A stretch of DNA of 61,777 nucleotides, from contig JAKQKQ010000025.1 in assembly GCA_029560585.1 (NCBI GenBank), positions 1 through 61,777 on the forward strand, given 5' to 3'. Positions 6,525 through 61,777 of the stretch are shown here, one piece after another. Under the pieces are notes generated by a model that saw nothing but the letters and a program-made list of their open reading frames with translations, was not told where the DNA came from and searched no databases. Every line of letters begins with the position of its first letter. The first letter of the stretch is position 1. A program made the position numbers and the translations under genes. This DNA comes from Verrucomicrobiota bacterium (GTDB taxonomy: Bacteria > Verrucomicrobiota > Verrucomicrobiia > JADLBR01).

Positions 6525-6591
6525 GGGAGCGCGCGATTCGAATCGCCTGCACGCAGGCTCCTACGATTCGGTGTCTGAAATTTCGAGTCAG
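6525..6591 (-). repeat. REP-like doublet, family A copy 2 (shortened)
   Basis: In minus orientation this copy has the flank CTGACTCGAAATTTCAGACA, then CGTAGGAGCC, the CCTGCGTGCAGG hairpin and CGATTCGAATCG. The second small hairpin is collapsed (GCGCGC only), so the doublet is partly deleted. It lies between two convergent genes. Confidence 0.88.
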
Positions 6592-9502: not shown

Positions 9503-11137
9503 ATGCAAAGAACGTTCCTCCGCGTCCCAGCCCTCGCCCTCGCCGCGGCGATGGCTGCGCCCCAGCTATCCCCCGCCGCACCCGAGCGGCCGAACTTCCT
9601 CGTGATCGTCGCCGACGACATGGGGTACTCCGACACGGGTTGCTACGGCGGCGAAATACAGACCCCGACCCTCGACCGCCTCGCGAACGAGGGGCTGCGC
9701 TTCACGCAGGTCTACTCCACCGGCCGCTGCTGGCCCTCGCGTTCCTGCATCCTGACCGGCTACTACGCGCAGCAAGTGCGCATGGATCCTCCGTTCGGCC
9801 GCCTCCCCGAATGGACCCGCGTGCTGCCCCAGTATCTCAAGCCGGTCGGCTATCGCAGCTATTCCTCCGGCAAATGGCACCTCAGGGGCGCCCCGAAGGC
9901 TCTCGCCGACGCCGGCTTCGACCGTGCCTACCTGATCGAAGACCACAACCGCAACTTCAACCCACAGCAGGCCACCCTCGATGACAGGCCGCTAGCCCCC
10001 GTCGAGTTGGACCAGGGCTACTACTCCTCAACGGCCATCGCGCAATACGCCATCGACTTCCTCAAGGAACACGCCGCGCAACATGCCAAGGACCCATTCT
10101 GCCTCTATCTCGCATTCATCTGCCCGCACTTCCCGCTGCAGGCGCCCCAGGAGGATATCGCGAGGTACCGCGGAAAATACGATGTCGGATGGGACGTCAT
10201 CCGCGATCAGCGCTGGCCCAGGATGCGCGAGATGGGACTCGTCAATTGCGCCCTCTCGCGCCGCGACCCCGTCACCATCCCAAACTGGAATATGTCGGAC
10301 GACCAGCTCCGGTCAGAGATCGGCCCCGGCGAGATGGGGCACGCCCTGGCATGGCGGGAACTGACCGACGCGCAGCGCGCATTCCAGGCCACCAAGATGT
10401 CCATCCACGCCGCCATGATCGACCGCATGGATCAGGAGATCGCCCGCGTGCTGCAGCAGATCAAAACGATGGGTGCCGCGGACAACACGGTCACCTTCTT
10501 CGTCTCCGACAACGGTGCCAGCGCCGAGATCATCAACCGCGGCGACCGGCACGATCCGACCGCCGCACCCGGATCCGCAAAATCCTACCTCTGCCTCGGG
10601 CCCGGATGGTCCACGGCCGCCAATACGCCATTCCGGCTCCACAAGCACTGGAATCATGAGGGCGGCATCGCGTCGCCCCTCATCGTCCACTGGCCCAGGG
10701 GCATCCCCGCCCACGGCGAACTGCGCCACAACCCCGGCCACTTCATCGACATCCTCCCCACGATCGCCGATCTCGCGGGCGCCAGCATCGCCGGACCCTG
10801 GAACGGCAAGGAAGTGCCCCCACTTCCCGGTAAGAGTCTCGTGCCGGCATTCGCGAAGGACGGCAGCGTCCCACGCGAATACCTCTTCTTCCACCACCAG
10901 GACAATCGCGCGATCCGCGTCGGCGACTGGAAACTCGTCGCCAAGGGCAAGGATGGCCCGTGGGAACTCTACGACATCTCGAACGATCGCTGCGAGTCCA
11001 ACGACCTCGCCGCAAAGAATCCGGACAAGGTGAAGGAACTCACAGCCCTCTGGCAGCAGCGCGAAGACGAGTTTCGCGCCCTCGCCGGCCCCATGCCGGA
11101 ACCCCGCAAGAAGAAGGGCGGCAAGAAAAGACCCTAG
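9503..11137 (+). CDS. Secreted formylglycine-dependent sulfatase (arylsulfatase family S1)
   Basis: The ATG at 9503 follows AAAGGAG at about 9487-9493. A signal peptide (about 1-25) precedes the sulfatase fold: metal-binding ADDMGYSD (Asp38/Asp39), the CxPSR signature CWPSR with Cys76 to be converted to formylglycine, SSGKWHLRG supplying the conserved Lys and His, and the metal-binding SDNGA. At 544 residues it is full length. It cleaves sulfate esters, so the target polymer is probably sulfated. No anaerobic or aerobic formylglycine-generating enzyme gene is in the window. The TAG stop codon is the first three bases of B-family hairpin copy 2, see that entry. Confidence 0.96.
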   Translation: MQRTFLRVPALALAAAMAAPQLSPAAPERPNFLVIVADDMGYSDTGCYGGEIQTPTLDRLANEGLRFTQVYSTGRCWPSRSCILTGYYAQQVRMDPPFGRLPEWTRVLPQYLKPVGYRSYSSGKWHLRGAPKALADAGFDRAYLIEDHNRNFNPQQATLDDRPLAPVELDQGYYSSTAIAQYAIDFLKEHAAQHAKDPFCLYLAFICPHFPLQAPQEDIARYRGKYDVGWDVIRDQRWPRMREMGLVNCALSRRDPVTIPNWNMSDDQLRSEIGPGEMGHALAWRELTDAQRAFQATKMSIHAAMIDRMDQEIARVLQQIKTMGAADNTVTFFVSDNGASAEIINRGDRHDPTAAPGSAKSYLCLGPGWSTAANTPFRLHKHWNHEGGIASPLIVHWPRGIPAHGELRHNPGHFIDILPTIADLAGASIAGPWNGKEVPPLPGKSLVPAFAKDGSVPREYLFFHHQDNRAIRVGDWKLVAKGKDGPWELYDISNDRCESNDLAAKNPDKVKELTALWQQREDEFRALAGPMPEPRKKKGGKKRP

Positions 11138-11179
11138 CCCGGAATTTCACGGCCTGACGGCTGTGAAATATCCGGGCTA
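11135..11179. repeat. B-family hairpin, copy 2, containing the sulfatase stop codon
   Basis: TAGCCCGGAATTTCACGGCC and the reverse-complementary GGCTGTGAAATATCCGGGCT form a long stem with a tiny loop. The leading TAG is the stop codon of the sulfatase gene. The stem sits between convergent genes and could act as a transcription stop, although no T-run follows it on the plus strand. Confidence 0.9.
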
Positions 11180-11405
11180 GGAAGCTGCCAGACTTTCCAA
11201 AGTCCAACAGGCTAGTTCGAAAATAGGACGTCACGGCCGAGTGCCGAAGGGCTTGCGCCCTTCGGCGTGGGCCGGGCGTTCGCCGAAGCCGGAATGTTGG
11301 TAAAATCGCCTCTGCCGATCGGCTTCGCTACGATTTCCCACCCCGATGAAGCCAGCGCAACCTTGGCGGTTGACATGGCGGCCCAGCACGCGCCCGCAAC
11401 CGACC
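11180..11405. other. Convergent intergenic region with further palindromes
   Basis: A perfect hairpin GCCGAAG...CTTCGGC with inner GGC/GCC pairing lies at 11244-11267, followed by a looser CGCCGAAGCCGG/CGGCTTCG pair. It separates the convergent sulfatase and oxidoreductase genes, so these are possible two-way terminators. Nothing coding was seen. Confidence 0.6.
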
Positions 11406-12776
11406 TCAGGCTTTTGGCAAGGTCCACGGGGCGCGCATGGGGCGCACGAGCAGCTTGTTCGCCTCGTCGTCCCCGGGGAACTTTTCGGCCACCGGATCCC
11501 ATTTTAGCCTGCGCCCGAGCCGGATCGCGATGAGACCGATCTGACAAATCGTCGAGGTCCGGTGCCCGACTTCGGCGGGCTCCACCGTCGGACGCCGCGA
11601 TTTCACGCCCTCGATGAAATCATCCTTCTCGCTCCCCTTGGGCAACTGGATCTCGTTCGGTCCGATCTGCGATCGCAGGAGTTCGGGCGGCTCGGCGGTC
11701 ATGCTCTTGAACCACTGGACTTCGATCCAGCCCTTTTCACCTTCGAAGCGGACGAAAGGCCGACCCGCCATCGTGTAGAGAAGCTCGGTGCCATCGGCAT
11801 AGCGGTAGGTGACCTCGAAATTCTGAAGGACGTCCCACATGGAGTCTTTCGGAAAGGTTCCCTTCCCCCCGACCTCAGTGGGACCGGTGTATTCGGTCCC
11901 TAGACCCCATTGGACGATGTCGATGATGTGCGCGCCCCAGTTGAGGATCATGCCATCGCAGTAGTCCTGGATGCACATCCAGCCGGGACGTTTCGAGCCA
12001 GTCGCACCGACACCGGCCTTGCGGGGATGGACGCGGAGTTCCGTATAGGGGCGCTCGGGCGCCGGTCCCTGCCACATCGCGTAGTCCAATTCATCGGGCA
12101 CGGGCATCGGATCGGGCGTGCCCTTCAAGGGCGGTTGCTCTTTTGGAACGCCCGCAAGCACGCGCCGGACCTTGCCGATGCGGCCGTTTCGGACCAGCTC
12201 GCACTGGCGCCGAAAATAGGCGTAGGACCGGCATTCGCTGTCGACGCGAAAGATGCGATCAAATTTCTTCATCGCGTCACTGATCGCGCGGCCCTCCTGC
12301 ACTGACATCGTTATCGGTTTCTCCAGGGCGACATCCTTGCCGGCCCTCGCGGCCTCGATGCCCATGATGGCGTGCCAGTGATCGGGCGTTGAGATCATGA
12401 CCGCGTCAACGTCCTTGCGGGCGAGCACCTCCCGAAAGTCGCGGTGCGTGAAACAGCCCTTCCACGAGTCGATCCCAGTCTCTTTCGCGTAGTGTGTCTT
12501 GACTCTCTCCGCTGCTTGCTCCAGCCGCCACGCGTCCACATCGCAAAGGGCCACGACCTGCGTGTCCGGGTGCGCCAAGAACGGCGGAAGATTCGCGAAA
12601 TATGCCTGACGGCCGATGCCTATGAGGGCGACGTTGATCCTGTTGTTCGCCGGCGCCTTGCCCGCGGCCCCCAGCGCCCGGGCCGGGATGATCGCAGGCG
12701 CCGCCAGCGACGCCGAGGCCGCAAGGCCGGTTTTGATGAATTGTCGACGGACGATTTTGGATGACTCAATTCTCAT
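11406..12776 (-). CDS. Tat-exported Gfo/Idh/MocA family oxidoreductase
   Basis: The ATG at 12776 starts a Tat signal (SSKIVRRQFIKTGLAA, twin Arg10-Arg11, then a hydrophobic Ala-rich run). The 456-residue protein has the Rossmann motif GIGRQA (53-58) and the family's EKP motif (Glu151-Lys152-Pro153). A typical C-terminal beta-sheet domain follows. Known for the family: NAD(P)-dependent sugar or inositol oxidoreductases, some acting as glycosidases by redox chemistry; Tat export suggests folding with bound cofactor before secretion. Very common in PVC bacteria in many paralogues. Substrate not predictable. Confidence 0.95.
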   Translation of the reverse strand: MRIESSKIVRRQFIKTGLAASASLAAPAIIPARALGAAGKAPANNRINVALIGIGRQAYFANLPPFLAHPDTQVVALCDVDAWRLEQAAERVKTHYAKETGIDSWKGCFTHRDFREVLARKDVDAVMISTPDHWHAIMGIEAARAGKDVALEKPITMSVQEGRAISDAMKKFDRIFRVDSECRSYAYFRRQCELVRNGRIGKVRRVLAGVPKEQPPLKGTPDPMPVPDELDYAMWQGPAPERPYTELRVHPRKAGVGATGSKRPGWMCIQDYCDGMILNWGAHIIDIVQWGLGTEYTGPTEVGGKGTFPKDSMWDVLQNFEVTYRYADGTELLYTMAGRPFVRFEGEKGWIEVQWFKSMTAEPPELLRSQIGPNEIQLPKGSEKDDFIEGVKSRRPTVEPAEVGHRTSTICQIGLIAIRLGRRLKWDPVAEKFPGDDEANKLLVRPMRAPWTLPKA

Positions 12777-12935
12777 GGTGCATCTCTGCAAGGGCCTGGC
12801 CTCGCCTGCGTGTCCCAAAAGTCTCTCGGAAATCAGCGTCCGCGTCATCCATTCTTTTCCGCTCCATCGCTGTCTCACCATCCGTCATGACCCGCGTTGC
12901 GTCTTGGCGTGGGGTCCCATGCGACCAAACCGTGG

Positions 12936-18716: not shown

Positions 18717-21347
18717 CTATTTTGCCGGAACCAGCAGCCGGTCTTTCGACTGAGCCCAGTAGGGCGGCAGATTGTCACCGAGGGCAATCGCGTAGTCCTC
18801 AAGTGTGCCCTTGGGCGCCCTCGATGGCACCACGGACCACGCCGTGCCATCCTGCCCTGGCGGCACTTCGATCTTGAGATCAACCTTCGGGGTTTCAACG
18901 GTGTTTCCGGTGGCGACCTCGCGGCCGGAAGGATCCATCACCGTGGCTCTCGCAGTCTCGCCAGGGCCGGGTGACGTGAGCGTGATGGTGAACGCCTTGG
19001 TCTTCGGTGGCACGTAGAAGTAGAGTGGGCCGCTTTCGCCCAGCAGGGCCAATTCTCTGCCCAGGATGACTGCGTGATCGTTGAGCAAGGTGACCTGTCC
19101 CGCGTTGCGGGAGGTGTTCAACACCAAGTTACAGATGCCGCCCGACGGGACGGCGACCTCCACCTCGGCCGCTTTGCCGGGCTCGATGTCGCCCTTGGCG
19201 AGCGGTTGTCTCTTTGCCGAGTAGAGGCTCCAACGGGCCGGCTCGAGATTGGTCTTGCCAATCTTTCGGATCGAGATCGTGGCGCGAAAGCTCTCCCCCG
19301 ACCCGAGCGAGGCGATCATGCCAAAGTCGCCGCGCAGCGAGACCGGCCGGATGCTGGCAGGCGCAACTTCCCCGGCGATGGGCTTCAGTGGCTGGCCGCC
19401 GTAGGCCACTTCGCGCGCCCCCTTCGATTCAAATGCGCGCGATTCGAGCGACGCGCAGAATGCGAGGTTGGCAACATTGTCCTTCTCGATATGCCTGCGA
19501 TACGCGCGCAAATCGGACAGCGCCTCCTGCGCGGCAATGAAATCACCGCTGGCCCGCGCCCGGCTGACCGCGGCGCACTTCTCGGCGTGCGCGAGACCTT
19601 TCCCGAGAAATGCGACGCGCGCCGCGGCGAGCGCGTCGGCCCCAGCCGCCTCCGCCGCCGCGGCGAGCAATTCTCGGCCGCCCGCAAACGCCTCGGGCGT
19701 GAAGCACTCGTGCGCCAAGCGGGGGTAGCTCGCCCAATTCGCCCCCATCTTCTTCTCCGCGGCCCGGAATCGCTCACGGTTGCCCATCGTGTAATTCTCC
19801 CAGTAACTGAAGTAGGCTTTGACCCCCTTCGCCGCAGGACCGAATGCGCCGTAATACTCGGCCAGCACTTCATCTGCCGTCTTGTCGAGGCAACTCTGCC
19901 AGCGCGCGAACAGATACGCCTGCGGGCCCTGCGTCGCCCACATGGCGGTGAGCGAATCAAAGTCCGTGGCGATCATCCCATGTCTGGCATGGTGGGCGAA
20001 CTCATCGGCGAACTGATGCGCGTAGATGAACGGCATGCAATAGCCTTCGAGGGTGTAGTTTGGCCGAAGAAAAAGCCTGCAGCCGGTCTTCGCCCACCCC
20101 TGCCACATTGCGAGGCACTGCTCGTGTTCCGCCTCGGAGCGGGGGAAGAATGAGTCGGGCACGAGCCCGATCCAGACGTGCTCGTTGAGCGTCTCTCGGA
20201 CGGGCGGCGGCGCATAATTCACGTAGGCATAGCCGGTCACAATGGCATCGGGGTCATGTTTCGACGCCAGTTCCTGGAGCGTGCGCCAGAATCGTGCGTA
20301 GCGGTCCGAGACGATGCCGTGTTTGCTGAAACGCTCGGGGTAGAGCCCTTCGTCGGGCCGCGGGGGATCCCACGCCCTGCACCGGTCGCACCCACACCGC
20401 CCAAACACGTCATTCTCGCACCCGTTGATGTTGGGCTTGTTATCGGGGTCGGAGGCACAGGCCTTCAGCCAGTTCTCGATGATCTGCGCGTGGAAACCGG
20501 GATTGGAGACACACATGCCCGCCCGGTCGCCGCGATCGCCGTATTGCGGGCCGCGCTTCCCGCCGTCGAGCAGGTTGAACCAGTCGGGATGTTCCCCGCC
20601 ATATTGCTTCCACCACGTGGTGAACGCGTGGCCCCAGCGCATCTTTCGAGAATGGCCCATGCGCTGCCGGCGGAGCCACTTCCCCTCATCCGCGCGCGCT
20701 TTCTTCAAAGCCTCCGGCGAAAACGTATCCCCCCCCGCCGCGCCGGGCCGGCCATCGAGCGTGCTGCGCAGGCGGCGGATGATCAACCTAGGAGCGACGA
20801 TCTTGTCCATTGCGGGAATCACGATGCTCTTCGTGGGCGGGACATGCTCCCCCAGTTCTCCCGGCCACAGCCACCTCACCCCCATGACGTTCTCCAGAAC
20901 CTCATACACGCCAAACAGCGTCCCGGCCCACGTGTCGGGATCGAGCGGTTTACCGTCGCTGTCGCGCCCCGCGATGCAGAGCGCATCCCGTGCCCCGCGC
21001 AGCACAAACTCGTCCGGCGACAGCGCCTTGGCGTCGATGCCGGCCCTGGCCGCCGCGGCCGTCGGGCCGATATAGATGCGCGCCAGCGCCCCATTCGGTT
21101 CCCGCCCTTCTTCAACCACGGTCAACTTGGCGCCCGTCGCCTTCTCCACGTGATAGACCAGTTCCTCGGCAGCATATTTTGCGACGGATGATGGCGCGAC
21201 AGGCAATACGACAACGGCGCCCGACAGCCCATCGACAACGAGAGGCGTGCCAATGCGTTGGCCGTTCCCCTCGCCGCCCGGGGCCATCGCCCTAATGCAC
21301 GAAATGCCAGATGACAGGATTACAATGAGCGCCAGGATTTGTTTCAT
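18717..21347 (-). CDS. Secreted DUF4838 protein (GH67-like N-terminal domain)
   Basis: The ATG at 21347 starts a signal peptide (MKQILALIVILSSGISCIRA); an ATG nine codons upstream would add an unhelpful leader. Residues about 45-165 (SSVAKYAAEELVYHVEKATG) match the alpha-glucuronidase N-terminal-like domain that precedes DUF4838. The DUF4838 barrel is recognisable from NGCENDVFGRCGCDRCRAWD, a Cys-rich loop typical of the family, and WIGLVPDSFFPRSEAEHEQC. The C-terminal approximately 250 residues are beta-sandwich-like. At 876 residues it is full length. DUF4838 proteins are abundant in PVC and Bacteroidota glycan loci; activity is not established, a glucuronidase-like role is only inferred. 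Confidence 0.9.
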   Translation of the reverse strand: MKQILALIVILSSGISCIRAMAPGGEGNGQRIGTPLVVDGLSGAVVVLPVAPSSVAKYAAEELVYHVEKATGAKLTVVEEGREPNGALARIYIGPTAAAARAGIDAKALSPDEFVLRGARDALCIAGRDSDGKPLDPDTWAGTLFGVYEVLENVMGVRWLWPGELGEHVPPTKSIVIPAMDKIVAPRLIIRRLRSTLDGRPGAAGGDTFSPEALKKARADEGKWLRRQRMGHSRKMRWGHAFTTWWKQYGGEHPDWFNLLDGGKRGPQYGDRGDRAGMCVSNPGFHAQIIENWLKACASDPDNKPNINGCENDVFGRCGCDRCRAWDPPRPDEGLYPERFSKHGIVSDRYARFWRTLQELASKHDPDAIVTGYAYVNYAPPPVRETLNEHVWIGLVPDSFFPRSEAEHEQCLAMWQGWAKTGCRLFLRPNYTLEGYCMPFIYAHQFADEFAHHARHGMIATDFDSLTAMWATQGPQAYLFARWQSCLDKTADEVLAEYYGAFGPAAKGVKAYFSYWENYTMGNRERFRAAEKKMGANWASYPRLAHECFTPEAFAGGRELLAAAAEAAGADALAAARVAFLGKGLAHAEKCAAVSRARASGDFIAAQEALSDLRAYRRHIEKDNVANLAFCASLESRAFESKGAREVAYGGQPLKPIAGEVAPASIRPVSLRGDFGMIASLGSGESFRATISIRKIGKTNLEPARWSLYSAKRQPLAKGDIEPGKAAEVEVAVPSGGICNLVLNTSRNAGQVTLLNDHAVILGRELALLGESGPLYFYVPPKTKAFTITLTSPGPGETARATVMDPSGREVATGNTVETPKVDLKIEVPPGQDGTAWSVVPSRAPKGTLEDYAIALGDNLPPYWAQSKDRLLVPAK

Positions 21348-21374
21348 GGTTTTGGCAAGGTTCGAATAATGCAT

Positions 21375-21587
21375 CCGGTTGGTCCCAAAGGCGGCCGCGC
21401 GCGGCCGTGATCCGCCGCGCGAATGTCCCTTGTGCCCACGCAGCCAGTCGCGGGGAGGCGAGGATCGCGGAAGTCCGTCTCATGGCGATTGGACCGGGTT
21501 CAAGGCACATTGTCCAAGATCCATAATTAAATACAATCGTCTTTGTCGTAACGGAGGCATCCACTGGCACGCGAGCGTGCGGTGGAC
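21375..21587. other. Upstream region of the DUF4838 gene
   Basis: This stretch carries an AT-rich patch (ATAATTAAATACAATCG, about 21522-21538), unusual for this GC-rich sequence and a possible promoter element for the minus-strand DUF4838 gene; no convincing -35/-10 pair could be assigned. A small GC hairpin GGCACGCGAGCGTGC is at about 21566-21580. Nothing coding was seen. Confidence 0.4.
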
Positions 21588-21632
21588 TAGCCCGGACATT
21601 TCACAGCCTTTCGGCTGTGAAATATCCGGGCT
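21588..21632. repeat. B-family hairpin, copy 3
   Basis: TAGCCCGGACATTTCACAGCC pairs with GGCTGTGAAATATCCGGGCT around a TTTC loop, with one mismatch. It forms the left border of the 135 bp element described in the next entry. The same hairpin followed by the same DNA is found at 61639. Confidence 0.95.
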
Positions 21633-21635
21633 CTG

Positions 21636-21770
21636 GGAAAACCGCGCCATGAAAGCCATTTATTGGGAAAGGTCAGGCAATGACTGGGATCTTTCGTGGG
21701 TGCAGAATGTGTTTCGCGGATCGGTGGCCCCAAACCTTCCAAAATCGCATTTTTCAGAGCGCGGTTTTCC
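21636..21770. mobile_element. 135 bp MITE-like element with 12 bp terminal inverted repeats
   Basis: The segment starts GGAAAACCGCGC and ends GCGCGGTTTTCC, a perfect 12 bp inverted repeat. It is flanked on the left by hairpin B3 and on the right by hairpin E. The first 92 bp recur at 61686-61777 (about 88-90% identical), cut by the window end. A short plus-strand frame (MKAIYWERSG...) spans it, but the differences between the copies mostly change residues, so it is not a conserved protein. Probably a non-autonomous mobile element or structured RNA. Confidence 0.7.
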
Positions 21771-21774
21771 TTTG

Positions 21775-21814
21775 AGCCTGCATGTTTCACGCGGGAGCGT
21801 GAAACATGCAGGCT
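21775..21814. repeat. Hairpin E with perfect 18 bp arms, containing a gene's stop codon
   Basis: AGCCTGCATGTTTCACGC and its exact reverse complement flank a four-base loop GGGA. On the minus strand the adjoining TAG (21815-21813) is the stop codon of the ceramidase-like gene, so the stem begins inside the stop codon. The shared TTTCAC/GTGAAA core suggests kinship with the B family. It is well placed to end transcription on both strands, though no T-run is present. Confidence 0.93.
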
Positions 21815-23162
21815 AGTTGGGGGCCGCCGTTTCTCTCACAAGTTCATCAACCTCCTTCGTGATCTGCTCCTCGACGGTCTCCGTGTAAGGGGCGCGGTGA
21901 CCATATTCGAGCATCCCGGTTGTGCCCTCGTAGCCTCCTTCCCTGAGCACCCGCAGGCTGGGCACATAGCTGAGCAGGTCGTTATTGTAACCGCAGACCC
22001 AGGTGGAGTCCCAGCCGTAGGCGGCCTTGAACCTGAGCGAGTAATCGACCACCGTCTCACCCGTGAGGGCGATGAGCGTCAGCTGGGGGCCGAAGCGCCA
22101 CACCTGCACGGGATAGCCCACGCGGTCTGGCGGCGATCCCAAGGTCTCGTATTGTCGGATGAGGTGCTCGAATTCGCGTCTCGGCATTCCGGTGAGGGCC
22201 GCCTGGCGCTTTTGGAGTTCCTCGAGCGAAAGGCCGGGTTGAAAGAACAATTCCGTCTCGCCCATCGCCGCTCGGATCGGGCCGCTGAGAGGGACCATCT
22301 TGCCCGCGACGACCTGGCGAACCGCCTCGGCCAGAATCTTGCCATACATGCGTGCGATATCCGTCGCCCGGGCATCCTCGCCGCGAATGCGGGGCAGCGG
22401 ATTGGCGTCGCCGCCGCAGTTCTGTATGAACATCGCGACCGAGTCCGGAAATGACCTCTCAAGCTCAAGCTGCGCAAAGCCGGGGTAATCGCCACTGATG
22501 CTCAGGCCCCCGAGCGCGGTCGGGTGGCAGGAGTAGCCGAAGACGACGGTCTTGATCTGCTCGCCATCCCTGACGACGATCACCGGCACGTCTTGGTCCA
22601 CCTGGCCGCCGGATCCGCGCCCTTGGGGGCGCGAGCGGCGCCGGTTCACCGCCACTCCGGCCAGCCCCTGCTCAAACTCGACCGCCGCCGGCGCGAGATT
22701 CGCGATGGCGTCGCCAATGACCCTGTCATACGACGCATAGACACTCGCCGTGTATCGATCACGCACCGCCGCCTGCTCCGGTGTCAGCTCATAATAGAGC
22801 CACAGGACATCCTCGGTGACCGGACAACTGTGGTTGTGCGAGGCGTTCAAAATCAGACGCTCCCTGGGGATACCGTGCTTCCTCGTCGCCTCTCTTGCGA
22901 TCTGGCCGACCATCTTCGCGCTCAGTCCGACGAGATCGGCGGTGATCATCACCGAGGTCGCCCCCGCGTCATCGCGCAGTGCGAGCGCCTTCAGCCAGAT
23001 CGGATGCTCGACCCGCTGCGACATCCGGGTCTTGCCCCCATAGCCGGCCAGCGGCACGGATTCACCCGGCGTGATGTCCACCTTTGCCGCACCGGCCTGC
23101 CATGCGCCGGGGCATTCACAGACAACGGCGGCGACCAAGAGGGCGGTGGCGAGGGCGTTCAT
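21813..23162 (-). CDS. Secreted neutral/alkaline ceramidase-like hydrolase
   Basis: The ATG at 23162 starts a signal peptide (MNALATALLVAAVVCECPGA). The mature 449-residue protein begins AGAAKVDITPGESVPLAGYGG, the hallmark opening of the neutral/alkaline non-lysosomal ceramidase N-terminal domain, and has the zinc-binding-type SHNHSCP (family SHTHSGP) and a second His in GYSCHPTA. The C-terminal domain of true ceramidases is absent, as in the many PVC proteins of this kind, whose substrates are unknown. It is the last gene of a co-directional group from 28049 and ends in hairpin E. Confidence 0.92.
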   Translation of the reverse strand: MNALATALLVAAVVCECPGAWQAGAAKVDITPGESVPLAGYGGKTRMSQRVEHPIWLKALALRDDAGATSVMITADLVGLSAKMVGQIAREATRKHGIPRERLILNASHNHSCPVTEDVLWLYYELTPEQAAVRDRYTASVYASYDRVIGDAIANLAPAAVEFEQGLAGVAVNRRRSRPQGRGSGGQVDQDVPVIVVRDGEQIKTVVFGYSCHPTALGGLSISGDYPGFAQLELERSFPDSVAMFIQNCGGDANPLPRIRGEDARATDIARMYGKILAEAVRQVVAGKMVPLSGPIRAAMGETELFFQPGLSLEELQKRQAALTGMPRREFEHLIRQYETLGSPPDRVGYPVQVWRFGPQLTLIALTGETVVDYSLRFKAAYGWDSTWVCGYNNDLLSYVPSLRVLREGGYEGTTGMLEYGHRAPYTETVEEQITKEVDELVRETAAPN

Positions 23163-23245
23163 GTTTGGTTGTGGTCGGGCATAGGGTGGCAGCAGGGACT
23201 TTACGTCGTCAGCCCGTGACCGAAGGGATACCGGTCCGAGATCCT

Positions 23246-24277
23246 TCACGGTTGGCGGTTGAGCCTCTCGTCGCCGACCTTCTGGATCCATTGTCTGGAA
23301 AACTCAGCACTGGGCAGCCCGACGTCCAAGACGGTGTTGGCCAGAAAGATCATGTCGTGGATGCGGCCGTCCCTGAGCCACTCCAAGCCCAACTTGCACT
23401 GGTGTTCCATCAGTTCCACCGGGATCGGCTTGCGGTTGTGAAAATCCCAGATGTAGAGTCCCAGGGCGATGCGAGCACCCTTTGGGGCGATTTTCTCCAA
23501 AGCGGCCAGGTTTTCCTTCAGACAAGGCAATTCGTCCGAGTTCCACGTCCAGAGTGTCAGGACGTCAAAGAGGCTGAGGAATCCCGCGAGAGGTGGCTCG
23601 CACCCGCGGAACGCCGGGGACGCGATCGTGCGCGATGGATTTATTTCATGGGTGTAGAGCGTCACCCAGGTTTGCATGGGGCGGCCGACGGCCCTCATCT
23701 GCTCTTTCGCCCGCGCGATCTCATCCGGGCCAAGGGCGGGGCGGCCCACGACGCGACCGTCGGCCTGTTTCTTGGCGTCGATGATAAAATCATCCAGATA
23801 GATGCCGGTGAAGTTGGGATACTTCCTGGCGAGCTCCAAGGCTGGCGAGAGCTCGTTCATGCCTCCCTTGCCGCCGCTCCCGACAACCGACCAGATCACG
23901 CGCTGCAGTGGTTGGAAGGAGATGGCATATTGCTCGAAGGCGGTTTTTGCCCTCCAGCGTTGGCCCCCGGGAAGGGCGGGGGTCTCGTGCGAGCGGATGA
24001 GCAAAAGGTTCGGTACGCCCAACCAGAAGGCACCCTCTGCCGGCGTCATGCGCGAACCGCCGCGAATACCGCCAAGCTCGAGGGAGTCGTCATCCCCGCC
24101 CGCAAGGACAGTGAAGATCCACAGCCGGTCGCGAACCGTGGCATCCGGCGGAGCAGCGGCGGCGGGCTGTTCCGCGGGCAAACGCCCCGCGGCGCAAACG
24201 AGGGCGGCAGCAATGGCAACCGCCAACGAACTGGGCACCGCGCGGCGCGATGGGCTTTGTCCACTCAGTCTGGTCAT
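23246..24277 (-). CDS. Secreted TIM-barrel-like protein, unknown family, paralogue of 17585-18544
   Basis: A GGGGAGAG ribosome site precedes the ATG at 24277, and residues 1-36 form a long Sec signal. The 343-residue protein shares with the product of 17585 the segments KYPNFTGIYLDDF, TLYTHEIN and FDVLTLWTWNSDEL, in the same order. The LDDF and THE strand ends are the best candidates for active-site acids. I do not recognise a named family. It lies 46 bp after the six-hairpin glycosidase and 83 bp before the ceramidase-like gene, within one likely transcript. Confidence 0.85.
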   Translation of the reverse strand: MTRLSGQSPSRRAVPSSLAVAIAAALVCAAGRLPAEQPAAAAPPDATVRDRLWIFTVLAGGDDDSLELGGIRGGSRMTPAEGAFWLGVPNLLLIRSHETPALPGGQRWRAKTAFEQYAISFQPLQRVIWSVVGSGGKGGMNELSPALELARKYPNFTGIYLDDFIIDAKKQADGRVVGRPALGPDEIARAKEQMRAVGRPMQTWVTLYTHEINPSRTIASPAFRGCEPPLAGFLSLFDVLTLWTWNSDELPCLKENLAALEKIAPKGARIALGLYIWDFHNRKPIPVELMEHQCKLGLEWLRDGRIHDMIFLANTVLDVGLPSAEFSRQWIQKVGDERLNRQP

Positions 24278-31457: not shown

Positions 31458-31533
31458 TGACTTGAAAATTCAGACACCGCATCGTAGGAGCCTGCTTGCA
31501 GGCGATTCGAGTCGCGCTCAAGCGCGCTCCTAC
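31458..31533 (+). repeat. REP-like doublet, family A copy 3, containing a gene's stop codon
   Basis: The flank TGACTTGAAAATTCAGACAC leads into GTAGGAGC, hairpin CCTGCTTGCAGG, a centre CGATTCGAGTCG with one change, hairpin CGCTCAAGCGCG and closing arm GCTCCTACG. On the minus strand the closing GTAGGAGC supplies the TAG stop codon (31532-31530) of the small gene at 31530-31826. Confidence 0.93.
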
Positions 31534-52864: not shown

Positions 52865-52967
52865 CGGTCTCGAACAATTCGGGCGGATAGATCTTCGACG
52901 ACGCCCGTGCCCCGGACGCGCGCCAGTCGGGGTACATTCGGGGCACCACCGGGAGTGACAATGAGAA

Positions 52968-53044
52968 GTAGGTGCGCGCTTGCGCGCGATTCGAATCGCC
53001 TGCAAGCAGGCTCCTACTGCCCGGCATCTGAATTCTCGAATCAG
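52968..53044 (-). repeat. REP-like doublet, family A copy 4
   Basis: In minus orientation it has flank TGATTCGAGAATTCAGATG, then GTAGGAGC, CCTGCTTGCAGG, CGATTCGAATCG, CGCGCAAGCGCG and GCACCTAC. It is adjacent to F-half (53061-53079) and segment C (53080-53146), in the same order as at 1704-2074 but inverted. It lies between two convergent genes. Confidence 0.93.
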
Positions 53045-53060
53045 CGCCGCCCCGATCCGG

Positions 53061-53146
53061 GGCTCTGCCACCACAGTCCAAAACACTCCTGGCCCGGATC
53101 CTGGGTCGGGGAACGAGCCGCGCCCGCAAACGGCGCCCGAAGTTTC
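53061..53146 (-). repeat. Composite repeat F-half plus segment C, copy 2 (inverted)
   Basis: On the minus strand 53146-53080 matches C1 (1704-1770) over 67 bp and continues into GGACTGTGGTGGCAGAGCC (53079-53061), the F half. The second F half and about 90 further bases found in copy 1 are absent here. The TAG stop codon of the abhydrolase gene (53152-53150) lies immediately beside the repeat border. Confidence 0.85.
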
Positions 53147-61504: not shown

Positions 61505-61506
61505 AA

Positions 61507-61572
61507 CTCAGACACCGAATCGTAAGAGCCTGCTTGCAGGCGATTCGAATCGCGCGCAAGCGCGCTCCTACG
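61507..61572 (+). repeat. REP-like doublet, family A copy 5
   Basis: CTCAGACACCGAAT leads into CGTAAGAGCC (one change from GTAGGAGCC), CCTGCTTGCAGG, CGATTCGAATCG, CGCGCAAGCGCG and GCTCCTACG. Its left flank has been interrupted by the MITE-like element at 61389-61504. Confidence 0.93.
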
Positions 61573-61594
61573 TCCCATTTTCTGCCCCGGTGGT

Positions 61595-61630
61595 GCCCCG
61601 AATGCCCGCCGACAGGCGGGCGCGCGGGGC
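61595..61630. repeat. GC-rich hairpin between A5 and B4
   Basis: GCCCGCC (61604-61610) and GGCGGGC (61615-61621) pair around GACA, and outer GCCCCG/CGGGGC extend the stem after a small internal loop. Function unknown. Confidence 0.6.
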
Positions 61631-61638
61631 ATGAGAGC

Positions 61639-61777
61639 TAGCCCGGATATTTCACAGCCTGCCGGCTGTGAAATTCCGGGCTCTGGGAAAACCGCGCCAT
61701 GAAAGCCATTTATTGGGAAAGGTCAGGCAAAGACTGGGTCTTTTCGCGGTTGCGGAGTGTGTTTCGCGGACCGGTGG
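61639..61777. mobile_element. B hairpin copy 4 plus truncated copy of the 135 bp TIR element
   Basis: TAGCCCGGATATTTCACAGCC...GGCTGTGAAATTCCGGGCT (61639-61682) is followed by the GGAAAACCGCGC terminus (61686-61697) and continues to match 21636-21727 until the window ends. The hairpin and element are therefore linked as a unit in both places. The missing right end must lie just outside the window. Confidence 0.85.

Follow-up and report, generated by a model that had tools for sequence, protein, structure and literature searches.

What is the palindromic cassette at 21588–21815 of the window, as we call the whole 61,777-nucleotide stretch of Verrucomicrobiota DNA analysed here? The original prediction, made from the sequence alone, described it as a nested structure of 228 bp and offered three identities: a miniature non-autonomous DNA transposon (MITE), an RNA with two terminal hairpins or a cassette recombination site. 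The anatomy given there, with hairpins B and E and perfect 12-bp inverted termini, was exact. On the forward strand, hairpin B (21589–21632) has 20-nt arms (21589–21608 and 21613–21632) that are complementary at 19 of 20 positions, and hairpin E (21775–21814) has perfect 18-nt arms (21775–21792 and 21797–21814) separated by a 4-nt loop. Between the hairpins lies the inner inverted repeat, GGAAAACCGCGC at 21636–21647 and its exact reverse complement GCGCGGTTTTCC at 21759–21770, which together span 135 bp and enclose a non-coding, unstructured core of 111 bp (21648–21758). The structure of the cassette thus stood, but its size had to be revised. The element proper is 222 bp (21591–21812, with borders set by aligned copies), and the figure of 228 counts three bases of each bordering CTAG. 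Its order is hairpin, 12-bp inverted repeat, core, 12-bp inverted repeat, hairpin.

In each end hairpin, the outer terminal repeat is paired with an inverted copy of itself that lies further in; the outer arm of hairpin B is the left terminal repeat and that of hairpin E the right one. These outer arms, TAGCCCGGATATTTCAC and TAGCCTGCATGTTTCAC, form imperfect terminal inverted repeats, and the inner 12-bp repeat is perfect. The unit is bordered by a left CTAG (21587–21590) and a right CTAG (21813–21816), the two copies of a 4-bp YTAR target-site duplication (TSD). The CTA of the right CTAG doubles as the reverse-strand TAG stop codon of an open reading frame at 21813–23291. Among the neighbouring genes in the window are those for a DUF4838 protein (18717–21374), a sulfatase (9503–11137) and a GFO/IDH/MocA oxidoreductase (11406–12881). 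As had been noticed, hairpin and element recur near the contig end: a second forward-strand copy, including its left CTAG, occupies 61638–61777, where the contig end cuts it, and is about 91% identical to the first over the shared body.

The genome of 7.06 Mb is split into 336 contigs, and copies were gathered by searches that are not a complete census. With up to three mismatches, 125 left-end and 119 right-end sites were found, against one left and no right site for the reversed-pattern control. These correspond to approximately 120 genomic copies with about 89% identity. For the listed left ends, the spacing between paired ends is 131 (or 134 on the reverse strand, an equal distance) in all but 3 of 66 cases. 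Of these three, one is a 1-bp change, one a copy with a repeat nested in its core, and one a deletion derivative that lacks most of the core and retains both ends and the TSD. In one copy (L174), the MITE has a further element nested inside it, which measures about 300 bp and has TAGCCAGAAAC...CTGGCTAG ends. Many of the unpaired ends coincide with contig ends. Dozens of contigs in this assembly and in that of a sister species, including the contig of this window, end inside a copy, and the element is probably a main cause of the fragmentation of these genomes into hundreds of contigs.

The alignment of 30 copies with their flanks revealed a sharp border. Similarity stops abruptly at the YTAR, and the flanks outside are unrelated. 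The copies elsewhere in the genome share not the hairpin alone but hairpins and 12-bp repeats together. The original prediction had proposed a search for target-site duplication among genomic copies, and we compared left and right tetranucleotides in 60 copies that have TA in each of the two, using 20,000 shuffles. The last base (R) agrees in 58 of 60 copies against 43.2 expected, a value that none of the shuffles reached, and the first base (Y) agrees in 53 of 60 against 46.4 expected (p 0.00025). Bases beyond the tetranucleotide show no left/right agreement. Among the same copies, a right TTAG is always paired with a left TTAG, and CTAA mostly with CTAA; the duplication is imperfect in some, with T on the left and C on the right in 6 of 60. 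Because the agreement between the flanks is direct and not inverted, it is what target-site duplication predicts. In addition, seven copies (L052, L117, L120, L191, L121, L139 and L023) interrupt other repeats. Taking out the element together with one YTAR leaves a sequence that can be aligned with intact paralogues of these repeats through the junction, with no gap there or a single 1-nt gap nearby (for example, GCGCGCTAG/CGCGC compared with GCGCGCAAG/CGCGC).

The 222-bp unit thus inserts with a 4-bp duplication. Matched YTAR duplications and empty sites are two independent tests, and both point to a MITE moved by a transposase that makes target-site duplications. The element also shows every general MITE feature that we tested: less than 500 bp without a transposase gene, dispersed copies with the same borders, terminal inverted repeats and a TSD. 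We therefore consider it very probable that the element is a MITE mobilised in trans at YTAR, the first of the three identities offered. A cassette recombination site is not supported. The copies are scattered through the genome, each insertion has a YTAR duplication of its own, and there was no sign of an array. CTAG is rare in the window, with 24 occurrences against 206 expected from base composition (an approximately 8-fold depletion), and 6 of the 24 border these elements. We also considered targeting of stop codons. In 20 of 35 copies the TSD is able to end an open frame of at least 80 codons, but the same holds for about 45% of background YTAR sites, and special targeting is therefore not claimed.

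Two inverted palindromes around a spacer, a clover-like fold and a high copy number are also features of REPINs and BIMEs, in which two inverted REP hairpins, here with a long spacer, would be spread through single-stranded DNA by a RAYT (REP-associated Y1 tyrosine transposase). REPINs are inverted REP doublets that form hairpins (PMC3116915). The genome contains six Y1_Tnp matches; however, none of the six loci carries this hairpin in the fetched flanks, which reach up to about 1.5 kb, so that no RAYT was found alongside the element. One Y1_Tnp locus does have a GTAG-type repeat nearby, but of a different family, and the tag of the 222-bp element is CTAG, not GTAG. YTAR is duplicated on insertion, and Y1 HUH transposition (IS200/IS605) is not known to make a target-site duplication. 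The TSD largely refutes a REPIN, which we regard as very unlikely. The GTAG-type repeat itself is a separate family, a REP-like palindromic doublet GTAGGAGCCTGCTTGCAGGCGATTCGAATCGC...GCTCCTAC, found in the window at 2025–2074, 6529–6564, 31484–31533, 52968–53017 and 61522–61571; the copy near a Y1_Tnp gene is at locus L035. Further repeat families in the window lie at 1704–1790, 52908–53146 and 61505–61631.

Next to the MITE, the prediction had placed a structured RNA, and had judged the internal sequence to be non-coding. The latter was borne out. A 55-aa open frame is kept in 50 of 60 readable copies, but its ratio of nonsynonymous to synonymous changes is neutral (2.84 against 2.77 expected), and changes are spread evenly over the three codon positions (195/216/184). 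Differences between subfamilies lack codon periodicity, and Pfam yielded no significant match, so a protein-coding core was rejected. A hidden palindrome in the core was likewise not supported. The core is a non-coding spacer.

The fold of 21588–21815 is strong (−121 kcal/mol, z = −10.6) and, together with a small number of compensatory hairpin changes, would suit a family of structured non-coding RNA genes dispersed in the genome, whose RNAs would have a hairpin at either end and a stem that closes them. However, the strength of the whole-element fold stems from the three stems and not from the core: in the main families of both species, the core folded by itself is no more stable than shuffled sequence; one minor core of the sister species (s3) reaches z = −2.1. 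No pairing beyond the inner repeat is conserved across diverged subfamilies. Covariation of the internal stem had been suggested as a check. In single copies, most stem changes affect one side only, the pattern of insertions in decay, and a few are compensatory. Rfam contained no match for the element, and the insertion sites are scattered and carry TSDs. An RNA family is thus highly improbable as the identity of this element.

The one other member of the genus that was found has about 84 left ends. In its main family the ends are 90–92% identical to those described here, whereas the core has no detectable similarity (p 0.38) and a nearly equal length, 112 bp against 111 bp. Searches of 37 further relatives gave no match except for 30 bases in one of them. 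Relatives named through an 18-mer in GTDB contigs were also rejected: among the matches listed, little was shared beyond the seed, and the hairpins were absent. A search with the junctions uncovered a second group with the same plan in both genomes: CTAG, hairpin, CTCTGGCAAAACCGCC, core, GGCGGTTTTGCTTT, CTAG, hairpin, CTAG. Measured alike, its cores are 108–109 bp, compared with 115–116 bp for the cores of this element. Between related subfamilies the cores diverge by up to about 40% with no change in length, and between other subfamilies they are unrelated. In these comparisons, the cores hold their length while their sequence diverges.

Modules are also exchanged. One copy in the sister genome (L297), apparently a recombinant, has two left-type ends and a core inverted relative to hairpin B. 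Chimeras that join hairpin B to the IS1182-type hairpin of the second group occur at independent CTAG/CTAG sites (L298–L300), and the reverse combination of the two hairpin types occurs once in this genome (L245). The exchange of hairpins and cores between subfamilies, with junctions, target and length fixed, amounts to a natural test of the end requirements of a transposase. The sequences thereby give access to the rules of end recognition and spacing, which can then be tested.

Which enzyme could mobilise the MITE? A transposase supplied in trans would recognise both hairpin-bearing ends, move or copy the element and insert it at YTAR, mostly CTAG, whereupon the 4 bp would be duplicated. The mobiliser is probably a DDE transposase of the IS1182/IS5 type; we infer this from the sister group of the same layout, which shares its terminal repeat with a resident IS1182, and from the chimeras, which have inserted more than once. 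The resident element (L200) encodes an IS1182-family transposase of 517 aa (NCBIfam 322.7 bits, cut-off 270), has the terminal repeat CAGCCTGTCGGACTT and is bordered by CTAG on both sides. In both genomes, CAGCCTGTCGGACTT(T) or a variant of it adjoins CTAG in the second-group hairpins. A second IS1182-like element (L202), which is under the NCBIfam cut-off, has the borders TTAA and TTAG. IS5, which belongs to the DDE_Tnp_1 group as well, makes YTAR duplications (PMC10359306).

The ends of the resident IS match the group with 108-bp cores, through the L200 terminal repeat, and not hairpins B and E; the chimeras link both. The inner GGAAAACCGC repeat was not seen beside the IS1182 ends of L200. 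In neither genome did the PF01609 transposases include one from an autonomous element with CCCGGATATTTCAC and CCTGCATATTTCAC ends; both assemblies are fragmented, often at these very elements. Searches of both genomes with PF01609 and PF13546 returned IS1182, IS1634 and others, none with hairpins B or E at its ends. At the fetched loci, what follows the left and right ends is a known, diverged or truncated core and never a transposase, and viral contigs did not contain the L200 transposase. The simplest reading would be that one class of DDE transposase acts on both end types, and the hairpins may well be required for end recognition.

Hairpins of both types also occur alone. In the window, a solo hairpin-B unit of 39 bp with CTAG on both sides (11134–11180) adjoins a decayed IS1182-type hairpin that is followed by CTAG (11181–11215), so that 11134–11215 comprises two adjacent solo hairpins separated and bordered by CTAG. 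Further solo hairpins flanked by YTAR were found at L264 and L319, and solo IS1182-type hairpins extend to other genera of the class, for example at L355 (CTAG...CTAA). These YTAR-bounded units suggest a possible origin of the composites by stacking, one unit inserting at the CTAG of another: hairpin, inner-repeat element and hairpin would each have been an independent YTAR-inserting unit, and later would have moved as one block. A CTAG persists between hairpin and inner repeat at L147, L302, L303 and L298–L300, and at L314 an IS1182-type hairpin directly abuts the right end at CTAG. On the other hand, the inner-repeat element was not encountered on its own, without hairpins, and exactly bordered solo copies of hairpin B are rare, with 3 sites. 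We consider stacking possible, at somewhat less than even chances. It concerns the origin of the element and not its current behaviour, and is compatible with a MITE.

More tentatively, and with some doubt, these elements may be members of one superfamily of composite MITEs, assembled from interchangeable hairpin units of 34–45 bp, each of which would be the palindrome of one IS end and could insert at CTAG on its own. Transposition would fix the exact spacing of the ends, so that the core could be replaced, inverted or randomised while its length could not change.

In a limited search of the open-licence literature, we found no description of this MITE family. Its target and mobility are ordinary; what is unusual is that its ends are double palindromes, its modules exchangeable and its cores locked in length. 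MITEs of the IS5/IS1182 group, which have a DDE transposase and a YTAR target, are likewise short and non-coding, with terminal inverted repeats and a 4-bp YTAR duplication, and the terminal repeat of the resident IS1182 is that of the sister group of elements. They differ in that here each end is a complete hairpin with a separate inner inverted repeat, the left and right ends are unlike each other, and no IS with the ends of this element was found. REPINs and BIMEs with RAYTs (PMC3116915) resemble it in the features weighed above; the element described here differs in its tag, its TSD, the lack of a neighbouring RAYT and its size of 222 bp. Some of the TIR repeats of TIRYT/TIRtron loci (PMC3733652) are double palindromes that occur in dimers or clusters, but these flank Y1 tyrosine transposases, a link not seen for this element. 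QMITE2 of Coxiella and Chunjie of Geobacter are of similar size (about 190 and 235 bp) and are described in the consulted part of a review (PMC10969869) as TIR, core and direct repeats; a common sequence or target is not shown there, and that part does not mention hairpin ends or an exchange of ends between subfamilies.

Beyond this genus, the IS1182-type hairpin CTAGCAGCCTGTCGG... appears as a solo repeat at L355, at L357 and in other members of the class, and at L357 the TAG of the solo hairpin coincides with the stop codon of an open reading frame. Within the window, a decayed solo relative of hairpin B lies at 2119–2163 and lacks CTAG borders.
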